From Bradyrhizobium liaoningense (GTDB taxonomy: Bacteria > Pseudomonadota > Alphaproteobacteria > Rhizobiales > Xanthobacteraceae): 64,000 nt of DNA. The notes beneath the pieces were generated by a model that saw only the letters and a list, made by a program, of their open reading frames with translations, was not told the origin of the DNA and did not search any database. The position numbers and the translations under genes are program-made. The stretch lies in NCBI RefSeq assembly GCF_018130955.1, contig NZ_JAFCJM010000002.1, forward strand, positions 1 to 64,000, written 5' to 3'. Positions 36,810-64,000 of this stretch are shown piece after piece; within the stretch, counting starts at the first letter, position 1; each line of letters opens with the position of its first letter.

Positions 36810-36824
36810 GTGTACGGCGTATAA
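36810..36824. promoter_or_regulatory. GTGTAC-N3-GTATAA motif (element operator, site 1)
   Basis: The 15-bp motif GTGTACGGCGTATAA lies 145 bp upstream of the excisionase-like gene. Related motifs occur at 46380, 54187 (opposite orientation) and 58879, each upstream of a transcription unit of the same element. The 400-bp gap 36570-36968 otherwise holds only short unsupported ORFs. Confidence 0.45.
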
Positions 36825-36968
36825 GCGGGAACGCTGCGGGACTTGACGGGAACCCTCGCTTTGCCTAGTTGTCCATGTATCGCAACGCCCGCGCTTTGCG
36901 GTTTGAAGTATGAAGTGATGGAAGTGGTCGAAGTTTTCCGGCGCGGATAACCCCGGAACACCACCACT

Positions 36969-37250
36969 ATGACGCCCCCACAATCGACCGCTACAGCGCC
37001 AGCGCGCAAGCTGAGCCGCCGCGAAGCCGCGGACTACGTCACGGCGCGCCACTTCAAAATCACGCCCAAGACCTTCGCGAACCTCGCCGTCAAGGGCAAC
37101 GGGCCCGCATTTCATAAGACCGGTGCCGGCCGCACTGCTCGCGTGATGTACGACTCCGCGACGCTGGATGCGTGGGCGGTCGCGAAGCTTGGCGCAGAGA
37201 TCGCCAGCACGTCCGCGAATCGAGCAGCGGAGGGGCGGCATCATGCGTAA
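36969..37250 (+). CDS. Excisionase/AlpA-like DNA-binding protein
   Basis: The 93 aa sequence KLSRREAADYVTARHFKITPKTF is a winged helix-turn-helix of the MerR/excisionase kind. It is followed by the typical wing and C-terminal elements NGPAFHKTGAGRTARVMY and LDAWAVAKL. Such proteins control excision or early transcription of integrated elements. It is the first gene of the element as seen here, and its last 8 bases overlap the start of the next gene. No partner integrase is in the window. Confidence 0.75.
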   Translation: MTPPQSTATAPARKLSRREAADYVTARHFKITPKTFANLAVKGNGPAFHKTGAGRTARVMYDSATLDAWAVAKLGAEIASTSANRAAEGRHHA

Positions 37251-37680
37251 CCACAGGCTCGACGCAGCCGCCGGGCTCAATGCGTTGGTCAATGACATCC
37301 TGACGCCAAGGCCCGCGCTCGCGACCGATGACGATACGTTCTTCGGTCTCCTGACCGCCGCGCGTGCCGCCGGTCTTCACGTCATCAAAGACGACGGCAG
37401 CCTAGACCTGACAGGCGTCAAGCTCACTCGCCGGCCGGAAAAGTCGCAACTCGGTCGCTCGTGGCGCGTCGTGCTTGGATTGCCCGGCGGGGTCACCAAA
37501 GCCGATATCGAGAAGGCAGCTGATCGCGAGGCGGGCAAGGCGCTGACGTCGGCACAGGCGGCCGTTGTCAACGTCGCTCGTCTTCAAGCACTGGCGGAGA
37601 TCGGCGGACCGAGCACGGCAAGCTACCCGACCGCGGAGCCGCGCAAACCGAAGCGTCGCAGTTACCGGCGGATGCGCTGA
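37243..37680 (+). CDS. Element protein of unknown function (145 aa)
   Basis: ATG 37243 has GGAGGGG 8 nt upstream and overlaps the upstream stop (translational coupling). The product has an acidic start (TDDDTFFGLLTAARAAGLHVIKD), a central part with a phosphate-loop-free alpha/beta look, and a very basic C-terminus (RKPKRRSYRRMR) suited to nucleic-acid binding. No family is recognised. Confidence 0.65.
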   Translation: MRNHRLDAAAGLNALVNDILTPRPALATDDDTFFGLLTAARAAGLHVIKDDGSLDLTGVKLTRRPEKSQLGRSWRVVLGLPGGVTKADIEKAADREAGKALTSAQAAVVNVARLQALAEIGGPSTASYPTAEPRKPKRRSYRRMR

Positions 37681-37786
37681 CGGCGGAAGGCAACGCCACC
37701 GATTTATCGCGGAAAGGTGGTGCGCCCTGCGTGATCGCGAACACATTCCGCATCCACAAAAGCCACGTCGCGGCGGGAGCGCAATC

Positions 37787-38014
37787 TTGGACGAACGCCA
37801 GCGCGCGGCATTGCGCGAGGTTGCTGCAGCCGGAGAGGGTAAGCCCTACGTTGAGGCCGCACGCCGCAGCTTGCCGAGCTGGAACGTGAGCACGATAACG
37901 GCGGCCCTTCGTCAGGAAGGCCATCTAGAAGCGGCCAAGCAGATTACGTCCGTTGTCTTCGCAACGCGGATGGAACACATGCCATGGCAGTTCATCGGGC
38001 GCGGAGGGCGCTAG
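37787..38014 (+). CDS. Element protein of unknown function (75 aa)
   Basis: The coding pattern begins at TTG 37787, with GGGAG 8 nt upstream; no ATG or GTG precedes it in frame with a site. It reads LDERQRAALREVAAAGEGKPYVEAARRSLPSW..., possibly a small helix-turn-helix-like domain. No family is recognised. Confidence 0.55.
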   Translation: MDERQRAALREVAAAGEGKPYVEAARRSLPSWNVSTITAALRQEGHLEAAKQITSVVFATRMEHMPWQFIGRGGR

Positions 38015-38017
38015 CAC

Positions 38018-38194
38018 GTGCATCGAATGCGAGACGCGGGCCGCAGAAGTCCGCGCGTTCGCCGACAGGCAGCTTGCGGACCGTGCGAGCCCGCCAACGG
38101 CTCACTAGCGGGGATACGTATCAACCTATTGCCGCAATGTCGCTGTTGCCGCGACGTGGTCAACGAAAGACGCCGGCATGACCGACTTGATTGA
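38018..38194 (+). CDS. Possible small Cys-rich protein (58 aa)
   Basis: GTG 38018 lies 9 nt after GGAGGG. The product has CGPC and CRCC pairs about 20 residues apart (a possible zinc site) and a very basic N-terminus. A competing frame in the same stretch also looks coding over 25 residues (CIECETRAAEVRAFADRQLADR). Only one can be right, so confidence is low. Confidence 0.3.
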   Translation: MHRMRDAGRRSPRVRRQAACGPCEPANGSLAGIRINLLPQCRCCRDVVNERRRHDRLD

Positions 38195-38262
38195 ACACAG
38201 CTACAGGCCGAAAGCTCCGCTATCGGTCAAGCATTGAAACCACAATTGCGAAAGGAACGACC

Positions 38263-38580
38263 ATGACCGAACAGCCCATCAACCTCGCCGCCGCACGTGA
38301 CAAGCGCGACATTCGCAAGGTCGCTGCCGAACTTGCTGAGTTCTACACGAGCCAACCTGTCGCAGTTGCGGAAGCCGTCGTCGGCGCAATTCAGGACGGG
38401 CACCCGTTCATGACTGCATATCTTGTCGGCAAGCAGGTTCGCGATGCCATATCCGCGGCGCCGGGTGTTGCCGCAATGTCAGACGCGGACGTGCTCGCTA
38501 TAGTCATGGACCGGGTTTTGAGCCGTGATGACGTTAACGAGCGTCACACCGAACCGGGCATTGCGGTAACCCATTCATAA
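38263..38580 (+). CDS. Element protein of unknown function (105 aa)
   Basis: ATG 38263 has AAAGGA 8 nt upstream. The product is helical and acidic (NLAAARDKRDIRKVAAELAEFY, then AVVGAIQDGHPFMTAYLVGKQVRDAI). No family is recognised. It is the last backbone gene before the chromosomal-type insertion at about 38.6-46.4 kb. Confidence 0.65.
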   Translation: MTEQPINLAAARDKRDIRKVAAELAEFYTSQPVAVAEAVVGAIQDGHPFMTAYLVGKQVRDAISAAPGVAAMSDADVLAIVMDRVLSRDDVNERHTEPGIAVTHS

Positions 38581-38993
38581 TCGGCGAGTTCGTAGCCAAG
38601 ATTCGAGCCCCCAGTTTGGGAGTCTGAATCATGGGGGGCTGACCGAAAGCAATACTCGAGGCTTGGTCCTGGTACGGCGCTTACGGGCGGAAGCGGACAT
38701 CAACCAATCCACAATCCTCGCCGAAACCGTCGAAAATGACGCCGAGCCGACATAGGCGGGGTTAGCAGCGCAGCAGGCTCCTGCCATGTCGAGTATGCTA
38801 TCCTGTCCGCTGGAAGTGGTAGAGGCGCCCGACAGCGCCCCGACTCGACCCATAACGTGCGGCCTGCCGACGAAGTGAACGAGTGAGGCGACGCCAATTC
38901 TATCGCAGGCAAGATCGCCCATTTGGCGGTTAGGCGACCAGCCGCAAAGTGCTAGTCTCTAGATCCCATAGCGTGGTCCTTACAGGGGGACGC
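38581..38993. other. Junction between element backbone and inserted chromosomal-type DNA
   Basis: No gene is supported in this 413-bp stretch; the minus-strand ORF here has no ribosome binding site or family features. It marks the change from element genes to the ABC_sub_bind cluster. I see no clear terminal repeat. Confidence 0.4.
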
Positions 38994-39983
38994 ATGCAAC
39001 GGCGGGAGTTCATCAGTCTTCTTGGCGGCGTGGCGGCTTGGCCGCTCGCGGCGCGCGCGCAGCAGAACGACCGCGTAAAGCGGATCGGAGTCCTGGTGGC
39101 AGCGACCACCGAGCATGATCCGGAGTCGGAAGCCCGCGTTGCGGCTTTTCGCCGTGGGCTCGAGGAGCTTGGTTGGGTCGATGGGCGCAACATACGCATC
39201 GATTATCGGTTTGCCGGCGGCGATGCCGACCGTATCCGGACTTACGTGGCGGAATTGGTGAAGTCGGCTCCGGATCTGATCGTCGCCAACAGTTCCCTTG
39301 TTGTCGCTGAGTTGAAGCGAAACACGGGCACGATTCCGATCGTCTTTGCCATCGTCACCGATCCGGTGAATCAGGGCTTCGTCACGAACCTCGCCCGTCC
39401 GGGGGGCAATATCACGGGCTTCACCCTCATCGAGTTCGAGATCATCGGAAAATGGCTCGGGCTGCTGAAGGAGATGGCGCCACGCGTCAACCGGGCGAAG
39501 CTCTTGTTCAATCCCGTTACTGCACCCTTCTTCGCGGTTTGGATGCGAGACCTCGGGACGCTCTCGGGTGCCTCTATCGAACTTGAGGCGGCGCCGGTGC
39601 ACGACCGGGCCGGGATTGAAGCAACCATTTCCATGCTCGCGCGCGAGCCGACCGCGGGGCTGATCACCGCGGCGGATGTGTTCACGGTCGCCAATCGCAG
39701 CTTGATCATAGGCTTGGCGGAGCGTTACCGGCTTCCGGCGATGTATCAATTCCGGCAGTTCGCCGCGGAAGGCGGCCTGATGTCCTACGGGCCCGACACG
39801 GCCGATATCTTCCGGCGGGCGGCGTCCTATGTCGACCGCATTCTCAAGGGCGCCAATCCGGCCGAACTGCCGGTGCAGCAGCCGACGAAATTCCAGCTGG
39901 TCCTCAATCTGAAAACAGCGAACGCGCTCGGGCTGACCGTGCCGCCTTCGTTGCTCGCAGTCGCCGATGAGGTGATTGAGTAA
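38994..39983 (+). CDS. ABC transporter substrate-binding protein (ABC_sub_bind type), copy 2
   Basis: The product is 329 aa from ATG 38994, with AGGGGGA 4 nt upstream. It has a Tat-type signal QRREFISLLGGVAAWPLAARAQ (residues 2-23). Family features are DGRNIRIDYRFAGGDADRI, VANSSLVVAELKRNTGTIPIVFAIVTDPVNQGFV, ARPGGNITGF, a YVDRILKGANPAELPVQQP segment and the end LAVADEVIE. It is a periplasmic binding protein without a neighbouring permease. Its 3' flank is shared with copy 3. Confidence 0.92.
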   Translation: MQRREFISLLGGVAAWPLAARAQQNDRVKRIGVLVAATTEHDPESEARVAAFRRGLEELGWVDGRNIRIDYRFAGGDADRIRTYVAELVKSAPDLIVANSSLVVAELKRNTGTIPIVFAIVTDPVNQGFVTNLARPGGNITGFTLIEFEIIGKWLGLLKEMAPRVNRAKLLFNPVTAPFFAVWMRDLGTLSGASIELEAAPVHDRAGIEATISMLAREPTAGLITAADVFTVANRSLIIGLAERYRLPAMYQFRQFAAEGGLMSYGPDTADIFRRAASYVDRILKGANPAELPVQQPTKFQLVLNLKTANALGLTVPPSLLAVADEVIE

Positions 39984-40018
39984 ATGATTACAGCCGTGTG
40001 TGTATTTGCTGCGCTGCA

Positions 40019-40135
40019 TGAGTCCGGAAGTGGCCCTGAGGCGAAGTGGCGAACCGTCTCATTAAGGTCCGCTTCATGGGTGGCAGCGGACTAGTTTTGC
40101 TCAGGCCGAGTTCTTCGCATTTTGACCCAAATGTA
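40019..40135 (+). repeat. Conserved 3' flank of ABC_sub_bind gene (copy a; copy b at 42793-42907)
   Basis: Starting CATGAGTCCGGAAGTGGCCC, this stretch shares GCGAAGTGGCGA, AGGTCCGCTT, GACTAG.TTTGCTCA and GAGTTCTTCGCATT.TGACCCA with 42793-42907 at the same distance from the homologous upstream gene. Shorter versions follow copy 4 (45899) and the remnant at 51396. It is non-coding, and suggests duplication of gene plus flank. The rest of 39984-40573 holds the left side of the IS110 element. Confidence 0.7.
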
Positions 40136-40573
40136 TGGTCCGGCCGCGCGTTGCAAGAGGTTTCGTCAACCTGGGTAGTTGCGGTCTTGCATCAATGTAT
40201 CCGGCCTCTGTTTGGAGCGTGTTGCGCTCCGGGCCATCATGGATATCAGCGCGCATGCGATCTAGTTAGCGGACAGGCCTCGAACGGGCCATTTGGGTCA
40301 CCAGTGTTCGCATGCGCCGGGAAGACCGATCCTCCATCGTCGTCTCATCCTCTCGCAGACCTCGGTGGGTTAAGGGGTGTTGGTTACGTCATCGATAGCT
40401 TCTCGCTTCGCGCTGTTCCTTCGTTTGTGCCTAGCGGTCGTTCCTTCGCCCCGGCCTGCGCGCGCAGACGCGCCGCGCGCCCGGGCCGTCAAGGCCGGCC
40501 GTCGTGCTGTCCCGAACGTCTTGCTCCACCGCTGCCAGGCCGCGTCTTGACGGCCCCGAGCACGGCGCGAGGA

Positions 40574-41638
40574 TCAAGCAGGTCGGGGCGCCGTCTCCTC
40601 GGTGTTGACGCACGCGAAGGCGCGTCCCTTGTTGAGCACCGCCCAGGCGATCCGGGCGAGCTTGTTGGCGAGCGCAATCGCCAGCACGTTGTGGTGCAAT
40701 CGTTTCTTGGCGGCTTCGATCCAAGATTTGAGGCCATAGCGCTCCCAGCACTTAACCTTGACCAGCACGACCCATGCGGCTTGCACGAACAGCGTGCGTA
40801 GGTAGCGATTGCCGCGCCGTGATATCTTGCCGAGGATCGTGCGGTCGCCGGTCGAGATCTGCTTTGGCACCAGTCCAAGCCAGGCGCCGAAGTCGCGGCC
40901 TTTCGAGAACACCTCTCCAGTGCCGATCGCGGCCACCATTGCGCTCGAGATAAGCGGGCCAATGCCGGGCACCGTCATCAGTCGCTCGCAGGCCTTGTCT
41001 TGACGGGCCAGCGTTTCGATCTCGCCAGATAGCCCCTCGATCCGCGCATCCAGCCGGCGCCAGTCGCCCGCCAGATCCTCGATGATGCGCAACATGCGAG
41101 GCAAGAGCACATCGGTGCGCGTCGCGAGGATACTTGGCAACTCGGACCGCAGGGAATGCAGGCCTTGCCGCACGGCGATGCCCCGCTCCAGCAGGAACGC
41201 ACGGATCTGATTGATGACTCCGGTACGCTGACCGACCAACCGATCGCGGACGCGGTGCAGCGCCTGAAGGTCGAGCTGATCGGCGGTCTTGGTCGCGACG
41301 AATTTCATGGTCGGGCGTTGGACCGCCTCGGCGATGGCTTCCGCATCTCGGAAGTCATTCTTCTGTCCCTTCGAATAGGGCCGCACGTATTTCGCCGGCA
41401 TCAGGCGGGCGTCGTGGCCAAGCATTTGGAGCCTGCGACTGAGATGATGCGCGCCGACGCAGGCCTCCATACCGATCAGGCACGGCGGCTGGTTGGCGAG
41501 CCGCGTTTCCACCTGGCCGCGTGACCACTTCTGCCGCAGCACGATGGCGCCGCGGTGATCATGACCCACGATATGGAACGAGTTCTTGCCGATATCGATG
41601 CCGATCACGGCGATCGCTGCGTTGAGTTTCTGAGACAT
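40574..41638 (-). CDS. IS110-family transposase
   Basis: The product is 354 aa from ATG 41638 (MSQKLNAA); the frame is open to 41698. The N-terminal DEDD (RuvC-like) domain has GIDIGKNSFHIVG (Asp), the Glu in GMEACVGAHHLSRRL and DFRDAEAIAEA. The C-terminal transposase_20 domain has MTVPGIGPLISSAMVAAIGTGE and a catalytic-Ser region near ISRRGNRYLRTLFVQAAW. It is full length and probably active. IS110 elements lack ordinary terminal inverted repeats, so the ends are not resolved; they lie roughly between 40430 and 41750. Confidence 0.93.
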   Translation of the reverse strand: MSQKLNAAIAVIGIDIGKNSFHIVGHDHRGAIVLRQKWSRGQVETRLANQPPCLIGMEACVGAHHLSRRLQMLGHDARLMPAKYVRPYSKGQKNDFRDAEAIAEAVQRPTMKFVATKTADQLDLQALHRVRDRLVGQRTGVINQIRAFLLERGIAVRQGLHSLRSELPSILATRTDVLLPRMLRIIEDLAGDWRRLDARIEGLSGEIETLARQDKACERLMTVPGIGPLISSAMVAAIGTGEVFSKGRDFGAWLGLVPKQISTGDRTILGKISRRGNRYLRTLFVQAAWVVLVKVKCWERYGLKSWIEAAKKRLHHNVLAIALANKLARIAWAVLNKGRAFACVNTEETAPRPA

Positions 41639-41792
41639 GGCGTGCTCCTTGTCTTGAGCGCCCCTTGCCAGCTTCTCGTGCTGGCAGGGCCGGAGCACGG
41701 CCGGACCATCCCATTACCGGACGATCGTCGCCAACGCCGTGGCTGAAAGCTGCTATAAGTTGGTCCCTTGGCAGTCTGGATAGGTGGGCCAA

Positions 41793-42773
41793 ATGAGGCG
41801 ATTTACCCGCGCGTCGCCGGTCCTCACGGTTCTACTGTTCGTCTTTGCTTCGATAACAGCCACCCATGCCGCACAGAAGGTAGCTCGCATCGGAGTGCTG
41901 TGCGTTACTACGTGCACCACGGCCAGCATGAATGCGTTTTGGAAAGAGCTTGAGAAGCTCGGTTGGGTGGAAGGTGCCAACATCGTCATCGACCGCAAGG
42001 AAGCATTTGCACGCCTCGACCAACTATCGGCGTTGGCCTCGGAACTTGCGCAATCGAAGCCCGATCTTATTGTAGCTGTTGCTCCGCAGGCGGCGCGCGC
42101 CGCCGCGAATGCGACTTCGGAGATACCGATCGTGTTCGCGGCGGTAGCCGATCCCGTCGGCATGGGGCTTGCGTCGAACCTTGCTCATCCGGATCGAAAC
42201 ATAACGGGTGCCGCGTCATTCGCTCCGGGCGATTTCAACGGCAAGACATTCGGAATTGTTCGCGAGGTGTTGCCACAGGCGAAGCGGCTGGCGGCGTTCG
42301 TCAATTCAACGAATGAAACGCATCGGTTGCTGTTTATGAAGGACGCGCCGTCTGCAGCCGACAAGCTAGGCTTTCAGCTCGACATTTCCGATCTGCACAG
42401 TCCCGAGGAATTGCCCGGAGCGGTCGCTGTCGCCAAGGCCCGAGGTGCCGACGTATTGTACGTTGTGCCTGATGCCATCTTCACTGGTAACCGCATCCCC
42501 GATCTTGCTGCAATGGCAGGTTTGCCGTTGATGTCGATTGACCCTCGCTTTGCGCCATTGGGTGGTTTGATCTCCTACGGACCGGACTACCTAGCGGTTT
42601 CCCGGCTTGGAGCCCATTATGTCGATCGAATTTTGAAAGGTGCGAAACCGACCGACCTTCCCATCGAGCAATCCGACAAGTATACGCTCATTATCAATCT
42701 CAAGACCGCAAGATCGCTCGGCGTGGAAATCCCAGCGTCCCTTCTCGCGCGCGCGGACGAGGTGATCGAATAG
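41793..42773 (+). CDS. ABC transporter substrate-binding protein (ABC_sub_bind type), copy 3
   Basis: The product is 326 aa from ATG 41793, with AGGTGGG 8 nt upstream; an in-frame GTG at 41784 is possible. It carries a Sec-type signal (LTVLLFVFASITATHA) instead of the Tat signal of the other copies. Family features are GWVEGANIVID, VAVAPQAARAAANATSEIPIVFAAVADPVGMGLA, a DRNITGA loop, VDRILKGAKPTDLPIEQ and the end LLARADEVIE. It is an orphan periplasmic binding protein whose upstream side abuts the IS110 element. Confidence 0.9.
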   Translation: MRRFTRASPVLTVLLFVFASITATHAAQKVARIGVLCVTTCTTASMNAFWKELEKLGWVEGANIVIDRKEAFARLDQLSALASELAQSKPDLIVAVAPQAARAAANATSEIPIVFAAVADPVGMGLASNLAHPDRNITGAASFAPGDFNGKTFGIVREVLPQAKRLAAFVNSTNETHRLLFMKDAPSAADKLGFQLDISDLHSPEELPGAVAVAKARGADVLYVVPDAIFTGNRIPDLAAMAGLPLMSIDPRFAPLGGLISYGPDYLAVSRLGAHYVDRILKGAKPTDLPIEQSDKYTLIINLKTARSLGVEIPASLLARADEVIE

Positions 42774-42970
42774 GCTCTCCCTTGTTGCGGCGCATGAGTC
42801 CGAAAATGGCCCATCAGCGAAGTGGCGATATGCCTCAGGAGGTCCGCTTAGTAGGGCATGGCCGACTAGATTTGCTCATGCTGAGTTCTTCGCATTGTGA
42901 CCCATCTCAGACATCGCATTGCAAGCACCAAGGCCTCCATACTAGGCTAGATGGAGCGGTGGAGGTCGGG

Positions 42971-43360
42971 ATGAGGTGCCTGAATATATATGCCACTCCT
43001 GATGGAGAATCCCATTTTGGGGAGGTGGACATCGCGATGACGATGACTCCACTATTCCCCAACGAAGTGCCTGTTGAGCTTTCTACTTACTACCCAGCGT
43101 CACGCGTCCGTTTCGTTCACATCCCCGCCGGGGTGCGCGAAGCCGGTTTTCACACGCCACCGAGTAGACTCCTCGCCGTATGGCTGGATGGCCACGTGGA
43201 ATTCGAGACGAGCGACGGAGAGGTGAGACGCGTTACTGCAGGAAAGGTGGTCCTCGTCGAGGATACGCACGGGAAGGGACATATCTCGCGCCATCCACCA
43301 GAAGGGCAGAACCTTATTTTGGTTATGCTGCCAAACGGACTTGACTTGCCATCTAACTAG
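42971..43360 (+). CDS. Small cupin-domain protein (129 aa)
   Basis: ATG 42971 has GGAGG 5 nt upstream; the frame is open to 42782 through the repeat flank. It is a single-domain beta-barrel-like sequence (VRFVHIPAGVREAGFHTPPSRLLAVWLDGHVEFETSDGEVRRVTAGKVVLVEDTHGKGHISRH, whose parts fit the two cupin motifs with the metal-site His in the GKGHISRH end). Its function is unknown. It is monocistronic within the inserted chromosomal-type block. Confidence 0.75.
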   Translation: MRCLNIYATPDGESHFGEVDIAMTMTPLFPNEVPVELSTYYPASRVRFVHIPAGVREAGFHTPPSRLLAVWLDGHVEFETSDGEVRRVTAGKVVLVEDTHGKGHISRHPPEGQNLILVMLPNGLDLPSN

Positions 43361-43539
43361 TCAGCTTGTGGACCCGAAGCCGGCATGGTCGCTTGTGCAA
43401 CCGTGAGACCGTGGCTGACGCCGTGAAAATACGGGAACTGCCGTAGCTAAGCCTGGTCGTAAAGGCTATTATCTTGTGCGACTTCCAAGCAGTGGGACGA
43501 CGGCTATTCCCTGCCACCGGCACCCACGAGGACGGCGCT

Positions 43540-44493
43540 GTGGAACAGGTGTCTCAGTGCATATCGATCCGGCCTTTGGACGAAGGCGACTTGCCCGAAG
43601 CAGGTGCAATCTTGCGTCTTGCGTTCGCGACACAGTTCGGGATGCCGCCGGATACATTTTGGATGGATCGCGACTTCGTCACTGGTCGTTGGGTGACAGA
43701 CCCCTCGCTGGCTTTTGGCGCGTGGATTGAAGACCGGCTCGTTGGATCCAGCCTGGGTACTAGTTGGGGAAGCTTGGGAGTATTCGGACCAATCTCAACA
43801 CACCCGGACACGTGGAATCGCGGGATCGCGAGGCTCCTTATTCCTCCAGTGCTCGAGCGGTTGAATGCATTGGGAGCTCGGCACCTCGCCTTCTTCACAA
43901 TTGCCGAAAGCACGAAACACATTGCCTTGTATCAGAGATTTGGCTTCTGGCCGCGTTTCCTGACCGCGATCATGACCCGCCCAGTCGATCCCAATGAGAC
44001 AGTGGGAGAATCGGTTCGCTACTCGGCCATTGCCGACGCAGATCAAGTAAATTGGCTTAACGCGTGCCGAGTTCTAACAACTGAGGTACGCGACGGATTG
44101 GATCTCACAACAGAAATATGCTCCGCTCACACTCATGGACACGGCGACAGCGTCTTTCTTACGGATGGTTCACGGGTGGAGGCAGTGGCTCTCTGCGAAT
44201 ACGGCCCCAAGAGCCCCGCAGGAGCCGGTTCGTGCCTAATTAGGTTCGCAGCGGCACACCCTGGCTCGGATACTGAAAGGCCTTTTGATCGATTGCTCAC
44301 TGCCTGCGAAACGCTGGCAGCAGACCAAGGGCTTAAACAAATCGTGGCATGTGTAAATGCCAGTCGCCCCAAGGCTTATCGACATCTTCTGGCCTTGGGC
44401 TTTCGCGCCCAGCGTAATGGCGTGACCATGCATCGCCCGAATGAAGACGCGTATAATCAGACAGCCGCTTTTGTTCTCGATGATTTACGATAG
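43540..44493 (+). CDS. GNAT N-acetyltransferase with two acetyltransferase-like halves
   Basis: The product is 317 aa from GTG 43540, with GAGG 8 nt upstream; the frame is open to 43474. The N-terminal half is a GNAT fold (ISIRPLDEGDLPEAGAILRLAF, a WNRGIARLL acetyl-CoA loop variant, then AFFTIAESTKHIALYQRFGFW). The second half repeats the pattern in weaker form and ends with the GNAT-like NASRPKAYRHLLALGFRAQRNGV. The target is unknown. Confidence 0.85.
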   Translation: MEQVSQCISIRPLDEGDLPEAGAILRLAFATQFGMPPDTFWMDRDFVTGRWVTDPSLAFGAWIEDRLVGSSLGTSWGSLGVFGPISTHPDTWNRGIARLLIPPVLERLNALGARHLAFFTIAESTKHIALYQRFGFWPRFLTAIMTRPVDPNETVGESVRYSAIADADQVNWLNACRVLTTEVRDGLDLTTEICSAHTHGHGDSVFLTDGSRVEAVALCEYGPKSPAGAGSCLIRFAAAHPGSDTERPFDRLLTACETLAADQGLKQIVACVNASRPKAYRHLLALGFRAQRNGVTMHRPNEDAYNQTAAFVLDDLR

Positions 44494-44529
44494 CAAGCAC
44501 ATCTTTTCTCGTCCGGCGGGAAGGCAAAT

Positions 44530-44651
44530 CTGAAGGTCAGGGCGCGCTTGTTGGGACGACCGTTCAGGAATATGGCGCTCACGATGTCGTGCCCGGCGTT
44601 GGCGGCGAGCCGCGCGGCTATCTTGAATTCACGGAGCTATTGTACGATTGA
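44530..44651 (+). pseudogene. Fragment of an unidentified protein (C-terminal end)
   Basis: One frame ending at TGA 44649-44651 reads like a genuine protein end: GQGALVGTTVQEYGAHDVVP, then GVGGEPRGYLEFTELLYD. It has no start and merges with non-coding sequence upstream, so it looks like the remnant of a gene cut by rearrangement. I cannot name the family. The remaining 44494-44897 interval holds nothing else that I recognise. Confidence 0.4.
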
Positions 44652-44897
44652 TCGCACAGGTTGCCTATCCAGGCTGATGTCGGCTGTTGGCCCTTCGCGA
44701 CATATTGCACCGCCGCGCGATCTCGGTCGCTAACAAAGCATAGCGGAAGTTGACGGGCAGCCGTCCATTGCAAAAGACGACGCTCTTGACCCATCTGAGA
44801 CACTGGCCGACAAATTTGCTGTGATGCACAACCGGCGTCGCCCCCTGAATGTGATAGCCTCAACTCGCCTGGAGTCTGTGCAGGAAGGGAAGTCTCC

Positions 44898-45881: not shown

Positions 45882-46128
45882 TCATGCAATTTACTGCACT
45901 GCATGAGTCCGGAATTGGCCCTTCGCGACATATTGCGCTGCCGCACGAACTTGACCGCTATGGGGGCAAAGCGGACGTTGCCTTTGTCGCATCACGCCGC
46001 TCGGTTTATGGGTACACGGCCTTGTCTTCGAAGTCGGGCGCGCTCGGTTCTTCAAGGCGCCGCCACCGTCTCCGCCGCCGCCAATTGCCTGTTCTCCTTC
46101 TCTCGTGTTTGCCTGTTTGGAATTGATG

Positions 46129-46164
46129 GGACCGGGGGCGCCCCCAACACAAACGCCCCGGTCC
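46129..46164. terminator. GC-rich hairpin; rest of 45882-46527 has no gene
   Basis: GGACCGGGGGCG (46129-46140) pairs with CGCCCCGGTCC (46154-46164) apart from one bulged G. It probably terminates transcription from the left. The interval 45882-46527 also holds the end of the ABC_sub_bind flank, a GTATGC-N3-GTATAC site at 46380 and TTGACG at 46434, but no supported gene. Confidence 0.45.
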
Positions 46165-46379
46165 TTCTCACGCGGCAGGCTGCCCACTGTCGCCGCCGAT
46201 TGTCATGGCTCTTTCGACGTCCCCTTAACGCAAACGAACTTCGCCGCAACTGTGAGGGACCTCGCGGATTGTATGAAGATGACAAGACGACTGCCAACAC
46301 GGAGCGGACTGACAACGCGCTTCGGGGAAAACTGACACTCCTGGAAAATCGATAGCCGCGTCAACGACGTGCGTTCAAC

Positions 46380-46394
46380 GTATGCGCGGTATAC
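46380..46394. promoter_or_regulatory. GTATGC-N3-GTATAC motif (element operator, site 2)
   Basis: GTATGCGCGGTATAC lies 134 bp upstream of the operon starting at 46528. TTGACG at 46434 could be a -35 element just downstream of it. See site 3 at 58879, which differs only in the spacer. Confidence 0.5.
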
Positions 46395-57507: not shown

Positions 57508-57857
57508 GCACCGACATGAAAAGCATTGTCCTGCCTTGGGAAGCTCCGCCCGCAAACGAGATCGCCCAACTGCACGCCGAATTGCAAGTCAACAACGTGT
57601 TGGCGCTCGCCGGCATCGCGCAAATCCGCTACGCCAAAAAGGGACGCGTCGCCTTCCGCAATCGTGAGGGCCGCGAGTGGATCGTGAGCGACAGGTACGA
57701 AGCGGTGCAGACGCGTTTTGACCTTGCGATTGAGAAGTACCGCCAAGTGCTGGACCGCGACGCAATCGCCCGCGTGGTTGACCGCGGTATCGCAGCTACT
57801 CCGGGTGTGAAGCTCGGCGCCAAGCGCGGGCCGTACAAAAAAGAACCGAAGGCCTGA
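57504..57857 (+). CDS. Element protein of unknown function (117 aa)
   Basis: GTG 57504 overlaps the stop of the replication protein (GTGA), so it is translationally coupled; ATG 57516 is an alternative. The product contains a beta-rich segment (VLALAGIAQIRYAKKGRVAFRNREGREWIVSDRY) and a basic end (GAKRGPYKKEPKA), suggesting a nucleic-acid or ATPase partner. No family is recognised. Confidence 0.65.
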   Translation: MSTDMKSIVLPWEAPPANEIAQLHAELQVNNVLALAGIAQIRYAKKGRVAFRNREGREWIVSDRYEAVQTRFDLAIEKYRQVLDRDAIARVVDRGIAATPGVKLGAKRGPYKKEPKA

Positions 57858-57860
57858 GAA

Positions 57861-58694
57861 GTGAAGATGTTGCAAACCGACGCTATCGACTTCGCGGGTC
57901 TAGCGACCAACACGGCAAGATCAGCCACGACCAAGGCGCTTCGTCTCGCGATGGACGCCGCGAAAGCGCTGCCGGCCAACGACCCCTTGCGGACCGGTAT
58001 CGCTGCGCTGCTACTAGCCAACGCCGCGGCATCGCAGGCTCCCGCACCGAAGATCATCGTGCCGCGGGACCTGTCACCGGAGGAGCGGGTTGCGCTGTTC
58101 TTCGCCGGCAGCGGGGCTGACGTCGGCAGCCCGTTCGCGGCGGAGGCCCTCAACGCAGCGCTCGCTACCAGGCTCGTTACGTCGGCGGACGTCTTCGCTC
58201 GCTACGGTCTGCGGGTAGATCACTTCAATACGCCAATGACGCACCAACTGAACTTCGCAAATGCGTGGTTTGCCGCCGCGACATCCGGAGCCTCCGCGGA
58301 TTTTGCTTGGAAGTTCGGCGTTGCCGCGATGACCGATCCAGCTCGCTTTATGGAGCCGCCGCCCGACATGGTGCTGGCGTTGATCCAAAGCGCGGGCGTG
58401 GTCTGCAAGCCGGTTCGCAACGCTCGCAAGGGGGCTGTGGATCAGGTCCGCTGCGTCGTCGCGCCGCGTGCCCGCAAGCTCGGTTTCGTCGAGAATATGA
58501 GCCTGAAGGATTTCGTCAGCGTCACCCAGCGGCTTTGCGGGGGCGAGCATTCGCAGGCAAAAATCAAAGCCTCGCTGATTTCTCAGGAGGCCTTGACGTA
58601 CGGTCTGGCGGACATCACGCCGGCACTCGACTTGGACGCGTTGAGGGCACGCGTGCCGGATTGGATCAACTCAATCTGCAGCGTCTTCCTCTGA
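57861..58694 (+). CDS. Element protein of unknown function (277 aa)
   Basis: The start is GTG 57861 or ATG 57867, 4 to 10 nt after the previous gene. The product is Ala rich and helical in its first 70 residues, then mixed (DLSPEERVALFFAGSGADVGSPFAAEALNAALATRLVT, MTHQLNFANAWFAAATSGASADFAWKFG) with several Cys. The last 24 bp overlap a small convergent gene. No family is recognised. Confidence 0.65.
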   Translation: MKMLQTDAIDFAGLATNTARSATTKALRLAMDAAKALPANDPLRTGIAALLLANAAASQAPAPKIIVPRDLSPEERVALFFAGSGADVGSPFAAEALNAALATRLVTSADVFARYGLRVDHFNTPMTHQLNFANAWFAAATSGASADFAWKFGVAAMTDPARFMEPPPDMVLALIQSAGVVCKPVRNARKGAVDQVRCVVAPRARKLGFVENMSLKDFVSVTQRLCGGEHSQAKIKASLISQEALTYGLADITPALDLDALRARVPDWINSICSVFL

Positions 58695-58814
58695 AGCGTC
58701 TGCCGCATCTCCGGCATTGGTCCAGAGATCAACGACCGCGCAGCCGGGCGGCAGGCGATCGACGGAAGACAGCATGACTTCGCGTCCGCTCGGCAAGGTG
58801 ACAAGAAACCTCAT
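58671..58814 (-). CDS. Very small acidic protein (47 aa), antisense to a gene end
   Basis: ATG 58814 has AGGAG 8 nt upstream, and the frame ends at TGA 58671. The product reads MRFLVTLPSGREVMLSSVDR, then an acidic end (GDAADASEEDAAD). It overlaps the 3' end of the plus-strand gene by 24 bp. Acidic small proteins of this size in mobile elements can be DNA mimics or inhibitors; here that is only a thought. Confidence 0.5.
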   Translation of the reverse strand: MRFLVTLPSGREVMLSSVDRLPPGCAVVDLWTNAGDAADASEEDAAD

Positions 58815-58878
58815 GAACGCTGCTCCTGTGGTGGTTCGGGGGACGGCCACCGTATGTCCGGAACCACGAGCCCGTCAA

Positions 58879-58893
58879 GTATGCACCGTATAC
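58879..58893. promoter_or_regulatory. GTATGC-N3-GTATAC motif (element operator, site 3)
   Basis: GTATGCACCGTATAC lies 117 bp upstream of the gene at 59010 and 65 bp upstream of the divergent small gene at 58814. TATAAAA at 58911 may be a -10 region. It has the same half-sites and spacing as site 2. Confidence 0.5.
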
Positions 58894-59009
58894 AAAGAGC
58901 GCGCAGACCCTATAAAACAAGGCTTTTCGCGTGGTACCGCGCAAAGCAGAGATGTTGATTTAACAAGCGGGCCGGGAGAAATTGGGGCGTCGTGATTTGA
59001 AGGAAGCCC

Positions 59010-59948
59010 ATGACCGCGCTCGCCGAAACTGCCGCCAAGTTCAGCCAGTATCGTCGCGAGCGCGCCGCCGATCGGGCACCACTCCCGCCACGCCGGCCGC
59101 TGACGTCGGCACAGTTCAACCACGCTGCCGACCGCTCGGACGCCGACTTGGTGGACCTTCAGCGCCGCGAGGGCGCGGCGGCGGAGCGTGAGCGGATGTT
59201 GGATCAACGCAAAAGGGCGGTTGCGGAAGACCGCGCGCACGATCGCAACGCCCTCGCGTTACTGCAATCGCAGGGCAGCGACACCGCCGGGCCGAAGCCG
59301 CTACCACCGGTCCCGGAATTCGTGCTTGAAGTCTTCGCGTGCATGCCTGCGTGGGAACATGAGCCGACATTTTGTCACGCGCGCTACGTTCGCAGCATCC
59401 GCGCGCTCGCGGGCTCTAGCGAGGATGCGCAGACGCTTCAGTTGCTAGCCGCCGATGCGCTGACGGAGGCGCTAGGGCCCGTGGCGGGCATGCATTCGGA
59501 ATGGCGCATGATGCACACGGCAGCCCGCCGGCTTGTCGTGCGATTGGAAAGCCCGTTCGGCGACGGCGAGGACGACATCGGCTCGTTGCAACGGCTTCAT
59601 GCGAAGCTGTCCCGGATTTCCGCAATGCTGATCACTGCGGAGTTTGTTGAGCGGCGCGGCCTTTTCGCTTCGAGCTACGCGCCCGCGCTGGTTTCGTTGC
59701 CAGCGCCGAAGCCCGCGTCGCCCGCACAATGTCACGCCGACGCGCTGCGGGCTGCCGTTGAGCGTGGCGACGTGCGATGGACCGGGGACGGGCCTCCGGC
59801 TGTGGTGGTGGAGCGGCAGCGCGAGCTTGCACCGGCAGCACCAAGACCTCTAAGCCCGCGAGCCGCGCAGATGACCATTGAGCGCTTGATCGAGGCGGGC
59901 GTTCCCATCCCGCTGGAGTTGGCTGCCATGGCACGGGCGGAGCGTTGA
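59010..59948 (+). CDS. Element protein of unknown function (312 aa)
   Basis: ATG 59010 has GAAGGA 8 nt upstream. An Arg/Glu-rich N-terminal coiled coil (SDADLVDLQRREGAAAERERMLDQRKRAVAEDRAHDRN) is followed by a helical core (YVRSIRALAGSSEDAQTLQLLAADALTEAL, DDIGSLQRLHAKLSRISAML) and a C-terminal helix (RAAQMTIERLIEAGVPIPLELAAMARAER). No family is recognised. A diverged copy of its last 60 bp recurs at 62143. Confidence 0.65.
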   Translation: MTALAETAAKFSQYRRERAADRAPLPPRRPLTSAQFNHAADRSDADLVDLQRREGAAAERERMLDQRKRAVAEDRAHDRNALALLQSQGSDTAGPKPLPPVPEFVLEVFACMPAWEHEPTFCHARYVRSIRALAGSSEDAQTLQLLAADALTEALGPVAGMHSEWRMMHTAARRLVVRLESPFGDGEDDIGSLQRLHAKLSRISAMLITAEFVERRGLFASSYAPALVSLPAPKPASPAQCHADALRAAVERGDVRWTGDGPPAVVVERQRELAPAAPRPLSPRAAQMTIERLIEAGVPIPLELAAMARAER

Positions 59949-60117: not shown

Positions 60118-60576
60118 TCAGATATACCTTCCCGCTTCTTTTCGAATGGAAAGATAAAGTTGATCGAACCTCCGCTTCGCGAACAGAGAAGACCCAGCAG
60201 CTATTGCTTTAATCTTGGTCTGCTGTTCTGCACTGTATCGACCGAACACGTCTGGATCGGAGAGGATAGCTAACATTCCTTGCTTTACTGCGTTTCCGCC
60301 CTGACCAAATCGGCTAGAGTAGTCGTCCAAAATCTCCATCAATTCTGCAAATGTTTCCAGAATTATCGCCCGTTTGAGGGGGGCAAGATTAGCTGATGTG
60401 CCCTTCACCAGCATATCGTCCGTCATGCCGAAAATAGAATTGTCTAAACTATTGCGAGCGATCAAAGCCGCTTGCCCTTCACTCTTTGAGCCCCGGCCAT
60501 AAAGATTTTGCTTGATCAGAGCCGTCAACTCGTGACGCGTGTCCACGAGGCGGGAAACGGGAACTCCTTCAAACAT
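60118..60576 (-). CDS. Low-GC cargo protein B (152 aa), unknown function
   Basis: ATG 60576 has GAGGGG 8 nt upstream. The product is helical and hydrophilic (RHELTALIKQNLYGRGSKSEGQ, LKRAIILETFAELMEILDDYSSRFGQGG, RRFDQLYLSIRKEAGRYI). It overlaps the upstream gene at 60569 by 8 bp, so the two form an operon. GC content is clearly below that of the backbone genes. No family is recognised. Confidence 0.7.
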   Translation of the reverse strand: MFEGVPVSRLVDTRHELTALIKQNLYGRGSKSEGQAALIARNSLDNSIFGMTDDMLVKGTSANLAPLKRAIILETFAELMEILDDYSSRFGQGGNAVKQGMLAILSDPDVFGRYSAEQQTKIKAIAAGSSLFAKRRFDQLYLSIRKEAGRYI

Positions 60577-61072
60577 TTTTACCCCTCATCACGCTAATCT
60601 TCCATGTGATCTTGAATTGATCGTTAGGCTGCTCGTGCAGTTCAAAGGCGGCGTGCATGTTTGCGTGGCCGACCAAATCTCCATAGGTACAGCCGTCGTC
60701 GAGTGGGTTTGTGAACACCCTCCACAGCATAGCCATAGTCTGGATGTTGGACCCATGGTCGTCCGATGACATGCCATCATCGTGAATGCTGGCGATAACG
60801 GTGTCGGCGAAGCCCCCCAGCTCTAAGCCTGGCATCATCCTGTCCCGGATACCGGGGAACAGCTGTAAGACACCATCCCGTTGAGTAGGTGTCCCGTGCC
60901 AGTTAAGCACCAGTTTGTTGCCCACTGTGGCCGTGACGTTCCCGGTGTTAGTGACACCCGCCACGAATGTCTCACTCCACATCTTTACTTTGCGTTTCAG
61001 TCCGAACATGAGACCCACTTCTCCTTCAGTGTTTGCCAGCATTTTCAGCGGCGAACGCTGTGATGTTTTCAT
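60569..61072 (-). CDS. Low-GC cargo protein A (167 aa), unknown function
   Basis: The start is ATG 61072; ATG 61042 or 61009 are alternatives and no strong ribosome binding site is seen. A basic N-terminus precedes a beta-rich domain (TFVAGVTNTGNVTATVGNKLVLNWHGTPTQRDGVLQLFPG, then SNIQTMAMLWRVFTNPLDDG) that ends FKITWKISVMRGKNV. The region HDDGMSSDDHGSN is His/Asp rich and could bind metal. It is the first gene of a two-gene operon with 60118-60576. No family is recognised. Confidence 0.65.
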   Translation of the reverse strand: MKTSQRSPLKMLANTEGEVGLMFGLKRKVKMWSETFVAGVTNTGNVTATVGNKLVLNWHGTPTQRDGVLQLFPGIRDRMMPGLELGGFADTVIASIHDDGMSSDDHGSNIQTMAMLWRVFTNPLDDGCTYGDLVGHANMHAAFELHEQPNDQFKITWKISVMRGKNV

Positions 61073-61326
61073 TAGGCTGGGAGCCTCGCATCAAACCCCG
61101 GTAGTAGCAGCACTTAGCGGCTGTGTCCCTCGCCAGTGCCAAGTAGGCTGACAATCTACACAACTAGTTACGGAAGGACGGTGAAAGCAGATCGATGGGG
61201 ATCAGACTTAGCATTCGCCTTCTCTTTCATCTCTTCGAAGTCCTTCAACGTGTCAGCGGTCATGTGATTGGTGACCCACGACGACGACGAAGACAGCGGA
61301 TGTGCAACGGTTGGCCGCCAAACCAT

Positions 61327-62169
61327 TCAAGCGGTTGTTCGGTCGGGCGAGACAAGCGCCGCTAGTTCGGCTTGCTTCTGCTTGACCGCGTTTAGCTGGG
61401 AACTGAACCACGCGATATCGACCGTGCCGTTCGCGACGTCATCCTCTAGCTGCGCGAGCAGTGTGTACTGCTCTCGGATCAGCGGAGCCAGATGATCGTC
61501 TTTGAATGCCGCTATCAGGTGCGCGTCGTCATCCCTGTACTCGTCGACAGCGACGTGCATCGCTTCCATCACGCCAACGTCGAGGGATTTGACCTCCTTG
61601 TGCAACGCGTAGTGCAGTTCCAGTTCGGTATCTTTCGCTTTGTCCAGACCGTAGGACTTCATGCCGACAGCAATCAGGCAACCGTCGGAGAGAACCGCCA
61701 TTAGCCAACGCTGCGTTAGCAGCAACTGCAAATTCTTCTCGTTCGCGTCCTTCGCCCAATCTGCGTCTTTGCACATGAAAGACCATGATGCGACGTGCTT
61801 AGCGCCCTGCGAGACGACGTACGCAGCGCGCCATGTACGTTCCATCATGATGAGCTTCAGGAGGCGTGACTTTTGCATTTGCCACGTTGCTTCATCTGCG
61901 AGCATCTTAAGCTGCGATTTGCAGTAGTCCCGCCAATAATCGAGCAAGCTGGTCCCGTTCCTGCCGACCAAACCCGCCGCAAGGCGCTTCCAATCGGCGG
62001 GCAGCGGCGGCGATGTAATTATGTTGTCGGCGTTTTTTAGCAGCTCATTGTACGTCAGGGGTCGGTGGAAAAGTGCTTTGAAGAATGCCATCTCTTGCGC
62101 CTTAATATCGCTTGCGCGGCGAATGGGTTCAGGGCCGTCCGCGTTTCCATCCGCCGGAGTTGATGCCAT
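61327..62169 (-). CDS. Low-GC cargo protein C (280 aa), unknown function
   Basis: The frame starts at ATG 62169, but that start has no ribosome binding site and its first 25 codons lie antisense to a duplicated gene end; ATG 62091, with AAGG 9 nt upstream, gives a better 254 aa product. It is mainly helical with many Trp and Met (TSLLDYWRDYCKSQLKMLADEATWQMQ, TWRAAYVVSQGAKHVASWSF, LHKEVKSLDVGVMEAMHVAVDEYRDD). No family is recognised. A gene-free 254-bp gap separates it from cargo gene A. Confidence 0.65.
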   Translation of the reverse strand: MASTPADGNADGPEPIRRASDIKAQEMAFFKALFHRPLTYNELLKNADNIITSPPLPADWKRLAAGLVGRNGTSLLDYWRDYCKSQLKMLADEATWQMQKSRLLKLIMMERTWRAAYVVSQGAKHVASWSFMCKDADWAKDANEKNLQLLLTQRWLMAVLSDGCLIAVGMKSYGLDKAKDTELELHYALHKEVKSLDVGVMEAMHVAVDEYRDDDAHLIAAFKDDHLAPLIREQYTLLAQLEDDVANGTVDIAWFSSQLNAVKQKQAELAALVSPDRTTA

Positions 62170-62367: not shown

Positions 62368-62568
62368 CTATTCGTCGTCAGCCTCTTTGCGCGGGCGGCC
62401 CATCGTCGGGGGCGCGTCGCCGGTCCCCATCTTCTCGATAACGATTGCCGCGATTTCCGCTGCCGCAGCCCGACCATGCTTCGCCGCGCGCCTCTCCACG
62501 GCTGCCGCCGTCTTCGTTGGCAGCGTCACGGCGTACCGCGGACCGCGGCGCTTCCTGTCATCAACCAT
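62368..62568 (-). CDS. Ribbon-helix-helix-like repressor candidate (66 aa)
   Basis: ATG 62568 has AGGAG 9 nt upstream. After a basic start (MVDDRKRRGPRY) come AVTLPTKTAAAVERRAAKHGRAAAAEIAAIVIEKMG, a short beta strand and two helices like the ribbon-helix-helix fold of CopG/Arc-type repressors, and a basic-acidic end (GRPRKEADDE). Four palindromes lie directly upstream in the divergent promoter region, so it probably represses both itself and the unit starting at 62746. Confidence 0.7.
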   Translation of the reverse strand: MVDDRKRRGPRYAVTLPTKTAAAVERRAAKHGRAAAAEIAAIVIEKMGTGDAPPTMGRPRKEADDE

Positions 62569-62582: not shown

Positions 62583-62718
62583 AGTGGCGCCACTAGCACA
62601 CCCGGACACAACCGTAAATCCCGGGGTAGTGGTGCCACTTCTGCATAGCTGTCCTGCATAACAAGTGGCGCCACTATCTTGACGTCCGTTCCGGCCCGAG
62701 CCTAAAAGTGGCGCCACT
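62583..62718. promoter_or_regulatory. Four-copy operator array AGTGGCGCCACT
   Basis: Perfect 12-bp palindromes occur at 62583-62594, 62664-62675 and 62707-62718, and a one-mismatch copy (AGTGGTGCCACT) at 62628-62639. The first extends to a 16-bp palindrome (CTAGTGGCGCCACTAG). They fill the 177-bp gap between the divergent genes at 62568 and 62746; TTGACG at 62679 could be part of a plus-strand promoter. The probable ligand is the ribbon-helix-helix protein encoded next to it. Confidence 0.85.
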
Positions 62719-62745
62719 AAACGTCGCCAGCACGGAGCCGCCGAC

Positions 62746-63087
62746 ATGACCACCGCAGAGCGCACCACTGCCGCCGACATCGCCGCCATGCAGCGCCTTG
62801 GCTACCGGTACGCCGCCGCCGCGGTGGAGCTGTCGGACGGAACGTTCAGCTTCTCCGGCCTCCGTCGCGATGCCGTGCAGGCGATGGACGCCATGATTGT
62901 GGAGCGAAGCGAAGGTGACCGCCGGTACGTCATCATTCTCAGCAAGCGCGCCCGTTTCGAAACGAACAAGGACGGTGCCGGCGCGAAGTGGGCGGCGCTC
63001 TGCGACCGCGCCCAAGAGCTTCGCCACGGCGTCCGTGACCGTGTTGTCACTCACACCGATCACACGAATTCGTGTCACTTCGGCTAG
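62746..63087 (+). CDS. Element protein of unknown function (113 aa)
   Basis: ATG 62746 has CGGAG 7 nt upstream. The product is alpha/beta (AAMQRLGYRYAAAAVELSDGTFSFSGLRRDAVQAMDAMIVERSEGDRRYVIILSKRARFETN has helix, strand and turn signals). The C-terminal 16 residues come from the repeat at 63061 and may be incidental. It is the first gene of a unit controlled by the operator array. Confidence 0.6.
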   Translation: MTTAERTTAADIAAMQRLGYRYAAAAVELSDGTFSFSGLRRDAVQAMDAMIVERSEGDRRYVIILSKRARFETNKDGAGAKWAALCDRAQELRHGVRDRVVTHTDHTNSCHFG

Positions 63088-63096
63088 GAGCCGCGC

Positions 63097-63351
63097 ATGT
63101 TCCCGAAAGACCCCAGCAACGAACCCGCCCCGACACCGCGCAAGGAATGCCGCGAGCGCGTCCAAGCGCAGCACCTTCGGCAAGGCGACTTCCTGCCGGC
63201 AACGCGTGACACCGTCGTGGGCGTGAGCCGCGGCGTTCGGACACCGTCCGGCAAGGTGGAAGTGACCTTGAGCAAGCCCGACCGCGGGATGCGTACGGCC
63301 GTGTGGGGGGCCCGAACCGAAATCAGCATCATTCGCGAAACCGCAGCCTGA
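63097..63351 (+). CDS. Element protein of unknown function (84 aa)
   Basis: ATG 63097 has AGGAG 8 nt upstream, provided by the 32-bp repeat. The product carries a beta-rich C-terminal half (GVRTPSGKVEVTLSKPDRGMRTAVWGARTEISII) that looks like a small barrel. No family is recognised. Confidence 0.6.
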   Translation: MFPKDPSNEPAPTPRKECRERVQAQHLRQGDFLPATRDTVVGVSRGVRTPSGKVEVTLSKPDRGMRTAVWGARTEISIIRETAA

Positions 63352-63364
63352 AGGGTACCCGGCA

Positions 63365-63544
63365 ATGCAAAAGCTCCTGATGACCGCAGCCATGTTTTGC
63401 TTCAACGCCGTGGCCGTGTGCTCAATCGCCAAAGCGGGCCATCCCGGCACCGCGGTCACACTCGCCCCCGTCGTGGTCTTCATCGCGATTATGGACGCGG
63501 TCCACACCGTCAAGTTTCGCGGCGGCTCCCAGCACGGTCGCTGA
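63365..63544 (+). CDS. Small membrane protein (59 aa)
   Basis: ATG 63365 has GAAGGG 9 nt upstream and the frame ends at TGA 63542. Two hydrophobic segments are visible (MTAAMFCFNAVAVCSIA and AVTLAPVVVFIAIMDAV), followed by a basic end. It fits the small-membrane-protein genes common in phage-like elements. Confidence 0.55.
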   Translation: MQKLLMTAAMFCFNAVAVCSIAKAGHPGTAVTLAPVVVFIAIMDAVHTVKFRGGSQHGR

Positions 63545-63622
63545 CGAAGGGGCGCGGCTTCGGGTGGACCGGCAAACTTCTCCGGAGCCGCGCCTTTCAA
63601 TTCAATCATAGATTTTATCAGG

Positions 63623-63877
63623 ATGGAAATGCGCGTGAGCGACCTTTCGACCCTATCGACAATGTCGACCTTCGAACTGCGCAAACTTCAAGGCGCGGTA
63701 GTGGAGGAACTGAGCTTCCGCAACGGCAACGCTCGAATGCGACGCGCGTTCGCCAGCGCCGCAATCGATTTGAACCGTCGTCCGGAAATTGACCTGTCGG
63801 ACCGTTGGCGGGTGGCGTCCGTCGCGCTGTTGTCGGTCGTCACCGTGGCCGTGCTCGTGTGGGGTACCATGCAATGA
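63623..63877 (+). CDS. Membrane-anchored element protein (84 aa)
   Basis: The start is ATG 63623, with CAGG upstream; an internal GTG at 63635 is an alternative. The N-terminal 55 residues are helical and charged (MSTFELRKLQGAVVEELSFRNGNARMRRAF). A C-terminal anchor (VASVALLSVVTVAVLVWG) follows. Its stop overlaps the next start (ATGA). Confidence 0.6.
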   Translation: MEMRVSDLSTLSTMSTFELRKLQGAVVEELSFRNGNARMRRAFASAAIDLNRRPEIDLSDRWRVASVALLSVVTVAVLVWGTMQ

Positions 63878-64000
63878 GCAAGCAACCCGACCCGCATCTG
63901 ATGGCAGCCAGTGACGAACAGATTAAGCAGTGGCTTGCGCTGGCGGTCCACAGGAAAGAACACAAGCGAGTAAGCGCGATTAAGTTTGCGATGGTGCGCC
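63874..64000 (+). CDS. Element protein, N-terminal part (3' end outside window)
   Basis: ATG 63874 overlaps the upstream stop by four bases. The visible 42 residues (MSKQPDPHLMAASDEQIKQW, then LALAVHRKEHKRVSAIKFAMVR) are helical and basic; the gene continues past the edge. No family can be assigned. Confidence 0.6.
   Translation, partial: MSKQPDPHLMAASDEQIKQWLALAVHRKEHKRVSAIKFAMVR

Follow-up and report, generated by a model that had tools for sequence, protein, structure and literature searches.

A site-specifically integrated, phage-related replicon in Bradyrhizobium liaoningense, probably a phage satellite or stripped-down prophage

The first 64,000 bases of a 291,349-bp contig (C71, NZ_JAFCJM010000002.1) in the 8.29-Mb genome of Bradyrhizobium liaoningense, called the window below, hold the left part of an integrated element that continues further along the same contig; C71 coordinates continue the window numbering. 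There is good support for a replicon that is related to phages, inserted site-specifically and equipped with an integrase of its own. It is likely to be either a phage satellite or a stripped-down prophage. This is indicated by its cores, the empty site in relatives, the integrase and a backbone under constraint in two diverged elements; by the large terminase subunit (TerL) and major capsid protein (MCP) being undetected in both, while one gene, g12, has a homologue in a phage head region; and by iterons around AT-rich DNA before a primase gene, with a different pair in the sister element. An initial annotation, made from the window alone, had described an integrated replicon with a primase-type gene, sites of its own and an integrase to be sought to the right. 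That description holds; the observation behind it is partly confirmed as a whole, and its interpretation partly supported.

Ends, target site and integrase

The element spans 36703-71149 on C71 (34,447 bp) and is bounded by two exact 17-bp copies of TCAACCATCAGAGGGTT. Its integrase gene lies 5.5-7 kb beyond the end of the window, where the initial annotation had placed the missing right end, and the left core lies just ahead of the compact, mostly plus-strand gene block that had been noted from about 36.8 kb. The landmarks are as follows.

36686-36702: attL core, 17 bp, exact twin of attR
36703-64000: part of the element within the window, continuing to C71:71149
C71:69529-70953, minus strand: integrase gene (int), 474 aa, tyrosine type, with arm-binding and catalytic domains
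C71:71133-71149: attR core, 7.1 kb past the window end, 17 bp, exact repeat of attL

Pfam integrase matches number 13 in the whole host genome, one of which (C71:69631-70107) falls within int. The attR core falls inside a gene of AMP-binding, acyl-CoA synthetase type (71105-72601), at the 3' end, and the left flank outside attL resembles the end of the synthetase gene in relatives, so that the insertion is read as displacing the old gene end and supplying a new one. In all four relatives fetched (G060, G013, G134 and G002) the site is empty, with the same two flanking genes adjacent and a single core between them. An integrase, att repeats and an empty site in relatives, as looked for in a tyrosine-recombinase element, are thus all present. 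With one mismatch allowed, the core pattern is present in 248 of the 252 genus genomes; two same-strand cores about 35 kb apart were seen, among the matches listed, only in the host genome and in that of Bradyrhizobium manausense BR 3351 (G409), a member of the same genus.

The element is rare, and its genes are not conserved chromosomal ones. The g12 gene was found in 2 of 257 genus genomes and in one of 279 genomes of the order (the host only), and close relatives of the integrase (E <= 1e-90) in 2 of 252 genus genomes, namely the host and G409. A scan of a genome collection with two short g12 peptide patterns, which miss diverged relatives, returned B. manausense only. None of the titles and opening lines of abstracts listed in literature searches describes this element.

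A sister element in Bradyrhizobium manausense

A largely similar gene order was found in the B. manausense element, which occupies about 35.5 kb (305379-340894 of contig NZ_LJYG01000108.1, here C108) between exact copies of the same core. Fourteen genes are collinear, namely g01, g03, g10-g13, the GNAT gene, g17, g20, g21, g26, g32, g34 and g35, with identities of 37-78% at the protein level (tblastn), and a second g01-like gene stands in the position of g16. The two elements share the 17-bp core and the target gene; the integrases are 44% identical, but the G409 copy lies at the opposite end. The sister element also differs in carrying portal, connector and ejection genes in a slot without the ABC_sub_bind cargo of the window element, and in having a Prim-Pol/VapE primase, a helicase and another iteron where the window element has g22.

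Nonsynonymous divergence (dN) was lower than synonymous divergence (dS) in 14/14 element genes compared, and dS ranged from 0.72 to 1.82 in these genes (the upper values being near saturation) against 0.51 and 0.65 in two flanking genes. Because dN is below dS and dS exceeds that of the flanking genes, the two elements seem to have arrived separately, with their genes under constraint.

Phage ancestry and the search for virion genes

To look for virion genes, all six frames of each element were compared, at E <= 1, with 22 proteins (among them TerL, MCP, portal and GroES) taken from two phages. The window element matched none of them, although very divergent versions could escape such a search; it therefore lacks the detectable TerL, portal and MCP of a complete tailed prophage and is not an ordinary complete prophage. 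The sister element gave matches to portal, gp4-like, ejection and large ejection-type proteins and none to TerL, MCP or GroES. Portal, gp4-like, ejection and 1727-aa proteins are encoded there at about 324.5-337.1 kb of C108, without a detectable capsid or terminase gene.

The earlier view that no virion genes are visible needs one amendment. A homologue of g12, with 46% identity, is encoded on IMG/VR contigs 3300005563_000008 and 3300025949_000055, which gave identical matches and are perhaps copies of one phage. On these contigs the order is portal, GroES-like gene, g11-like gene and g12, and the MCP gene lies on the opposite side of the portal from g12; the MCP matches Phage_capsid_4 and the TerL matches PHROG 2. 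The similarity of g11 to its phage counterpart is short and weak (35 aa, E 8e-4; 57 aa, E 3e-5 from the G409 copy). Since g12, and weakly g11, have homologues that neighbour portal and capsid genes, a phage origin of the lineage is probable. Further likeness to these contigs lies in the GNAT protein and a Prim-Pol/AAA_25 replication protein; they differ in possessing MCP, TerL and portal genes and in lacking a match to g26, for which no relative was found in viral contigs. The phage and plasmid collections yielded no match to g12.

The portal of G409 shares 38% identity with its counterpart in the IMG/VR phage and is distantly like (23-25%) those of Alcaligenes phage vB_Af_QDWS535 and Podoviridae sp. 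ct2G2228, whose gene order is TerL, portal, GroES, three unnamed genes and MCP. The genes at the g11 and g12 positions in these two phages have no significant similarity to g11 and g12. The 189-197-aa protein just upstream of their MCP was rejected as a g12 counterpart on this ground. Its neighbour of 137 aa bears a weak likeness to g12 (pairwise E 0.15; hhalign E 0.02 with a probability of 2%), on which no claim is based. Podovirus-like phages are reported from soybean bradyrhizobia in PMC11599138. Portal relatives were found in 3 of 252 genus genomes, G409 and, more weakly, G047 and G080, and none in the host genome; in G047 there is a capsid match as well, with 35% identity to that of the IMG/VR phage, so that this looks like a separate prophage. 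One TerL family searched in whole genomes gave a single match in G409, about 240 kb away from its element.

A small terminase subunit (TerS) was considered for g20 and is unsupported: the structure model has a mean predicted local distance difference test score (pLDDT) of 46 and no fold match as good as E 0.001. Its best matches are TetR-type regulators (E 0.6 and worse), and one phage TerS stands at E 9.3. The g12 model has a pLDDT of 43. Sequence searches against solved structures, run for g12, g20 and the N-terminal part of g22, brought no usable match.

These observations also bear on a tentative but serious alternative, in which the element is a cryptic prophage, belonging to a new temperate group, that has decayed and no longer moves. 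Capsid and terminase genes would have been lost before portal and ejection genes, with insertion sequences (IS) and host genes filling the gap. In favour of such a course, g12 and, weakly, g11 would be left over from a head-gene region, G409 still has portal, gp4-like and ejection genes, IS copies and cargo occupy the virion-gene slot, and the GNAT gene is split. Intact reading frames in the integrase, g22 and the shared backbone, the GNAT gene excepted, speak against it, as do dN below dS in all 14 genes and the failure to detect the same two functions, TerL and MCP, in both diverged elements.

A putatively exchangeable replication module

The replication protein g22 contains an AAA_25 ATPase domain (RepA-like, E 1e-19), which bears out half of its earlier description as a primase-polymerase/RepA helicase. 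Its N-terminal 330 residues have no Pfam match. They align with a phage Prim-Pol/AAA_25 protein at 26% identity over 172 columns (pairwise E 0.001), in an alignment that covers the end of the phage Prim-Pol domain and beyond, and this pairwise match makes the primase-polymerase half plausible, though unproven. Full-length g22 was found in the host only, among 146 genus and 248 family genomes, and peptide patterns detected no full-length relatives in viral contigs. One other genus genome has the ATPase domain alone at 30% identity; in phages and plasmids, among the matches listed, only ATPase-domain matches below 30% were seen.

53712-53997: probable origin, iterons TTGTCTGTTT around an AT-rich stretch (motif array)
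54460-57507, plus strand: g22, replication protein, 1015 aa, with AAA_25 ATPase and Prim-Pol-like N-terminal half

The sites that had been attributed to the replicon exceed chance. In both orientations and with at most one mismatch, TTGTCTGTTT has 9 matches in 64 kb against 1.44 expected, and seven of these fall within 156 bp (53736-53891) of the 850-bp gap before g22. Between the first iteron sets lies the 40-mer with the lowest GC content in this gap (53751-53790, 27.5% GC), which belongs to the lowest 0.03% of the element. The array at 53712-53997 is therefore a probable replication origin, as judged from motif and composition. Two iteron sets around an AT-rich region are described for phage-inducible chromosomal islands (PICIs) of E. 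coli in PMC6092414.

In the same slot of the sister element a different iteron, AGGGTTCACA, has 10 matches in 20 kb where 0.68 would be expected. All of them lie inside 443 bp and surround a stretch that is likewise 27.5% GC; a Prim-Pol/VapE primase gene and a Dda-like helicase gene lie downstream. The window contains no AGGGTTCACA within one mismatch (1.68 expected), and the sister element no exact TTGTCTGT. As both the iteron and the primase differ in one and the same slot, origin and initiator seem to have been exchanged as a single cassette. A separate origin-like arrangement was seen in IMG/VR contig 3300005563_000008 (G496), where, within 20633-22468, three forward and three inverted repeats surround a centre near the primase gene, in a stretch without convincing genes.

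An iteron-like origin with a RepA-type ATPase gene would also suit an integrative plasmid or mobilisable element, spread by conjugation or transformation, that acquired its phage genes secondarily, and the g22 ATPase domain weakly matches six plasmid records. We regard this plasmid reading as improbable. Against it, g12 lacks a plasmid match and sits in a phage head region elsewhere, and no relaxase, conjugation or type IV secretion family, as looked for in integrative and conjugative or mobilisable elements, exceeded the Pfam cut-off in the 37 of 41 element open reading frames (ORFs) scanned, g14a, g36, g39 and g40 being outside the scan. A single MobD-like match, in g18, was below the cut-off.

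Regulatory sites, gene content and cargo

Four AGTGGYGCCACT sites (7 matches on both strands against 0.06 expected) lie within 62583-62718, between the ribbon-helix-helix-like gene g30 and the divergent g31. With up to two mismatches the count is 4 against 3.70 expected, which is no excess, yet all four are within 136 bp. An exact match occurs in only 2 of 82 loci compared, both of them copies of this stretch. The array may comprise operators for the g30 protein.

Of the 41 ORFs listed for the element, the first begins at 36969. The initial annotation had seen one shared architecture and strand, a picture that does not survive three ABC_sub_bind genes, two transposase genes and, besides the IS110 transposase gene, seven minus-strand genes (g18, g27-g30, g36 and int). 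The statement that the remaining genes match nothing holds almost entirely where named families are concerned, the exceptions being the genes for cargo, transposases, GNAT proteins, peptidase M78 and the integrase. The call of an excisionase at g01 found no backing in Pfam and only weak PHROG matches (E 0.05); an excisionase-like role, suggested by position and by a homologue beside the sister integrase, is not confirmed. A ribbon-helix-helix protein that had been called at 49873-50094 has no Pfam match. The remaining features of the window part are listed here.

36969-37250, plus strand: g01, small protein in the excisionase position, 49% to the protein beside the G409 integrase
38581-46527: cargo segment, filling the slot of the G409 virion-like genes
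38949-39983, 41784-42773 and 44898-45881: three ABC_sub_bind genes, in the cargo segment
40574-41698, minus strand: IS110 transposase gene, in the cargo segment
42782-43360: unassigned gene, in the cargo segment
43474-44493: GNAT gene, in the cargo segment
46528-47343, plus strand: g10, helix-turn-helix protein, HTH_23 at E 1e-4, just under the cut-off, 40% to G409
47357-48043, plus strand: g11, head-region gene by neighbourhood, 52% to G409, weak phage match
48087-48659, plus strand: g12, head-region gene, 78% to G409, 46% to the IMG/VR phage contigs
49034-49596, plus strand: GNAT gene, split by a frameshift, a single ORF in G409
51564-52391, plus strand: IS5-type insertion sequence after g17, with DDE transposase domain, its DNA repeated in many genus genomes
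52442-53609, plus strand: g20 and g21, 39-40% to G409; g20 with a predicted helix-turn-helix and long helix in a low-confidence model
57507-59948, plus strand: g23, g24 and g26; g26 60% to G409, g23 and g24 not found there
60118-62169, minus strand: g27-g29, cargo genes with relatives elsewhere in the genus
62368-62568, minus strand: g30, ribbon-helix-helix-like, weak FitA/Arc-type matches below the cut-off
62583-62718: four AGTGGYGCCACT palindromes, probable operators in the divergent g30/g31 promoter region
62746-64000, plus strand: g31-g34; g32 (63097-63351) 77% and g34 (63874-64146) 66% to G409

The substrate-binding genes and IS copies are cargo. The IS110 element extends over 40085-41723, and G002 has 15 matches to it, all at 91-92% identity. 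G082 has relatives of g27 and g28 together, other genus genomes have one or the other, and relatives of g29 are present in G084 and G135 (66-90%); PADLOC returned no match for g27-g29 as defence genes. Two stretches of about 100 bp (50453-50561 and 51453-51557) flank a minus-strand gene and recur as a pair in G052, G407 and G422 at spacings of about 2.5, 1.8 and 1.1 kb, as if bounding an exchangeable unit. Beyond the window, C71:66035-67174 encodes a peptidase M78 (IrrE-like) with similarity to RmrA/spr1629-type antitoxins; it overlaps a small gene of no assigned family (67137-67595), and the two (C71:66035-67595) are possibly a toxin-antitoxin pair. Outside the element, a group II intron match (RF02005, 79 bits) lies at 5104-5233.

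Interpretation and outlook

The reading we prefer, that the element is a helper-dependent, satellite-like derivative of a temperate phage lineage related to short-tailed phages, is in our judgement about evenly balanced. The element would have retained functions in integration, regulation and replication. The argument for helper dependence is one of absence, in that capsid, portal and TerL genes were not detected. In such a satellite the integrase would recombine attP with the synthetase gene at its 3' end and would provide a substitute gene end, g01 would aid excision, and the ribbon-helix-helix-like protein would act on the four palindromes. The g22 protein would bind the iterons, melt the AT-rich stretch and replicate the excised circle, and capsid and terminase would come from a helper phage.

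Several points weigh against this proposal. The one TerL family searched gave no match in the whole host genome, in which no helper prophage was found by that search. Signs of decay are a GNAT gene broken by a frameshift and the presence of two IS copies, and a prophage in decay accounts for much of the same evidence. Moreover, g20 is not supported as a small terminase, 34.4 kb exceeds the classical satellite size, and only two such elements are known.

For PICIs of Gram-negative hosts, PMC6092414 gives a typical size of about 15 kb and lists as features the absence of structural and lytic genes, int, xis, a fused or paired primase/rep, an ori, an att site never occupied by prophages, terS in some, and helper induction and interference. 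The present element is like them in its own integrase, primase-type replicon, iteron sets around an AT-rich stretch and lack of a detected TerL or capsid gene. It differs in its 34,447 bp, in the phage head-region genes g12 and, weakly, g11, and in that no terS, interference or helper was shown. Occupied sites, among the matches listed, number two, one of them with portal and ejection genes. Owing to the size, PICI membership is not claimed.

A bolder joint reading, which we consider unlikely, takes the two elements as founders of a new family, namely large phage satellites whose backbone is fixed and has one plug-in slot for iterons and initiator; some members would refit the unique vertex of the helper capsid. 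Members bearing portal, connector and ejection genes without capsid or terminase would then not borrow whole particles.

To summarize, exact ends, an att site and a testable origin are now available for a rare family whose backbone genes are mostly without named relatives. Iterons and primase seem to change as a pair at this locus, which offers a direct handle on the swapping of replication modules in satellites and phages. Should it prove helper-dependent, the element would represent, in root-nodule bacteria, a large satellite of phage descent. A testable question is posed by the B. manausense element, in which portal and ejection genes stand without a detectable gene for the capsid.

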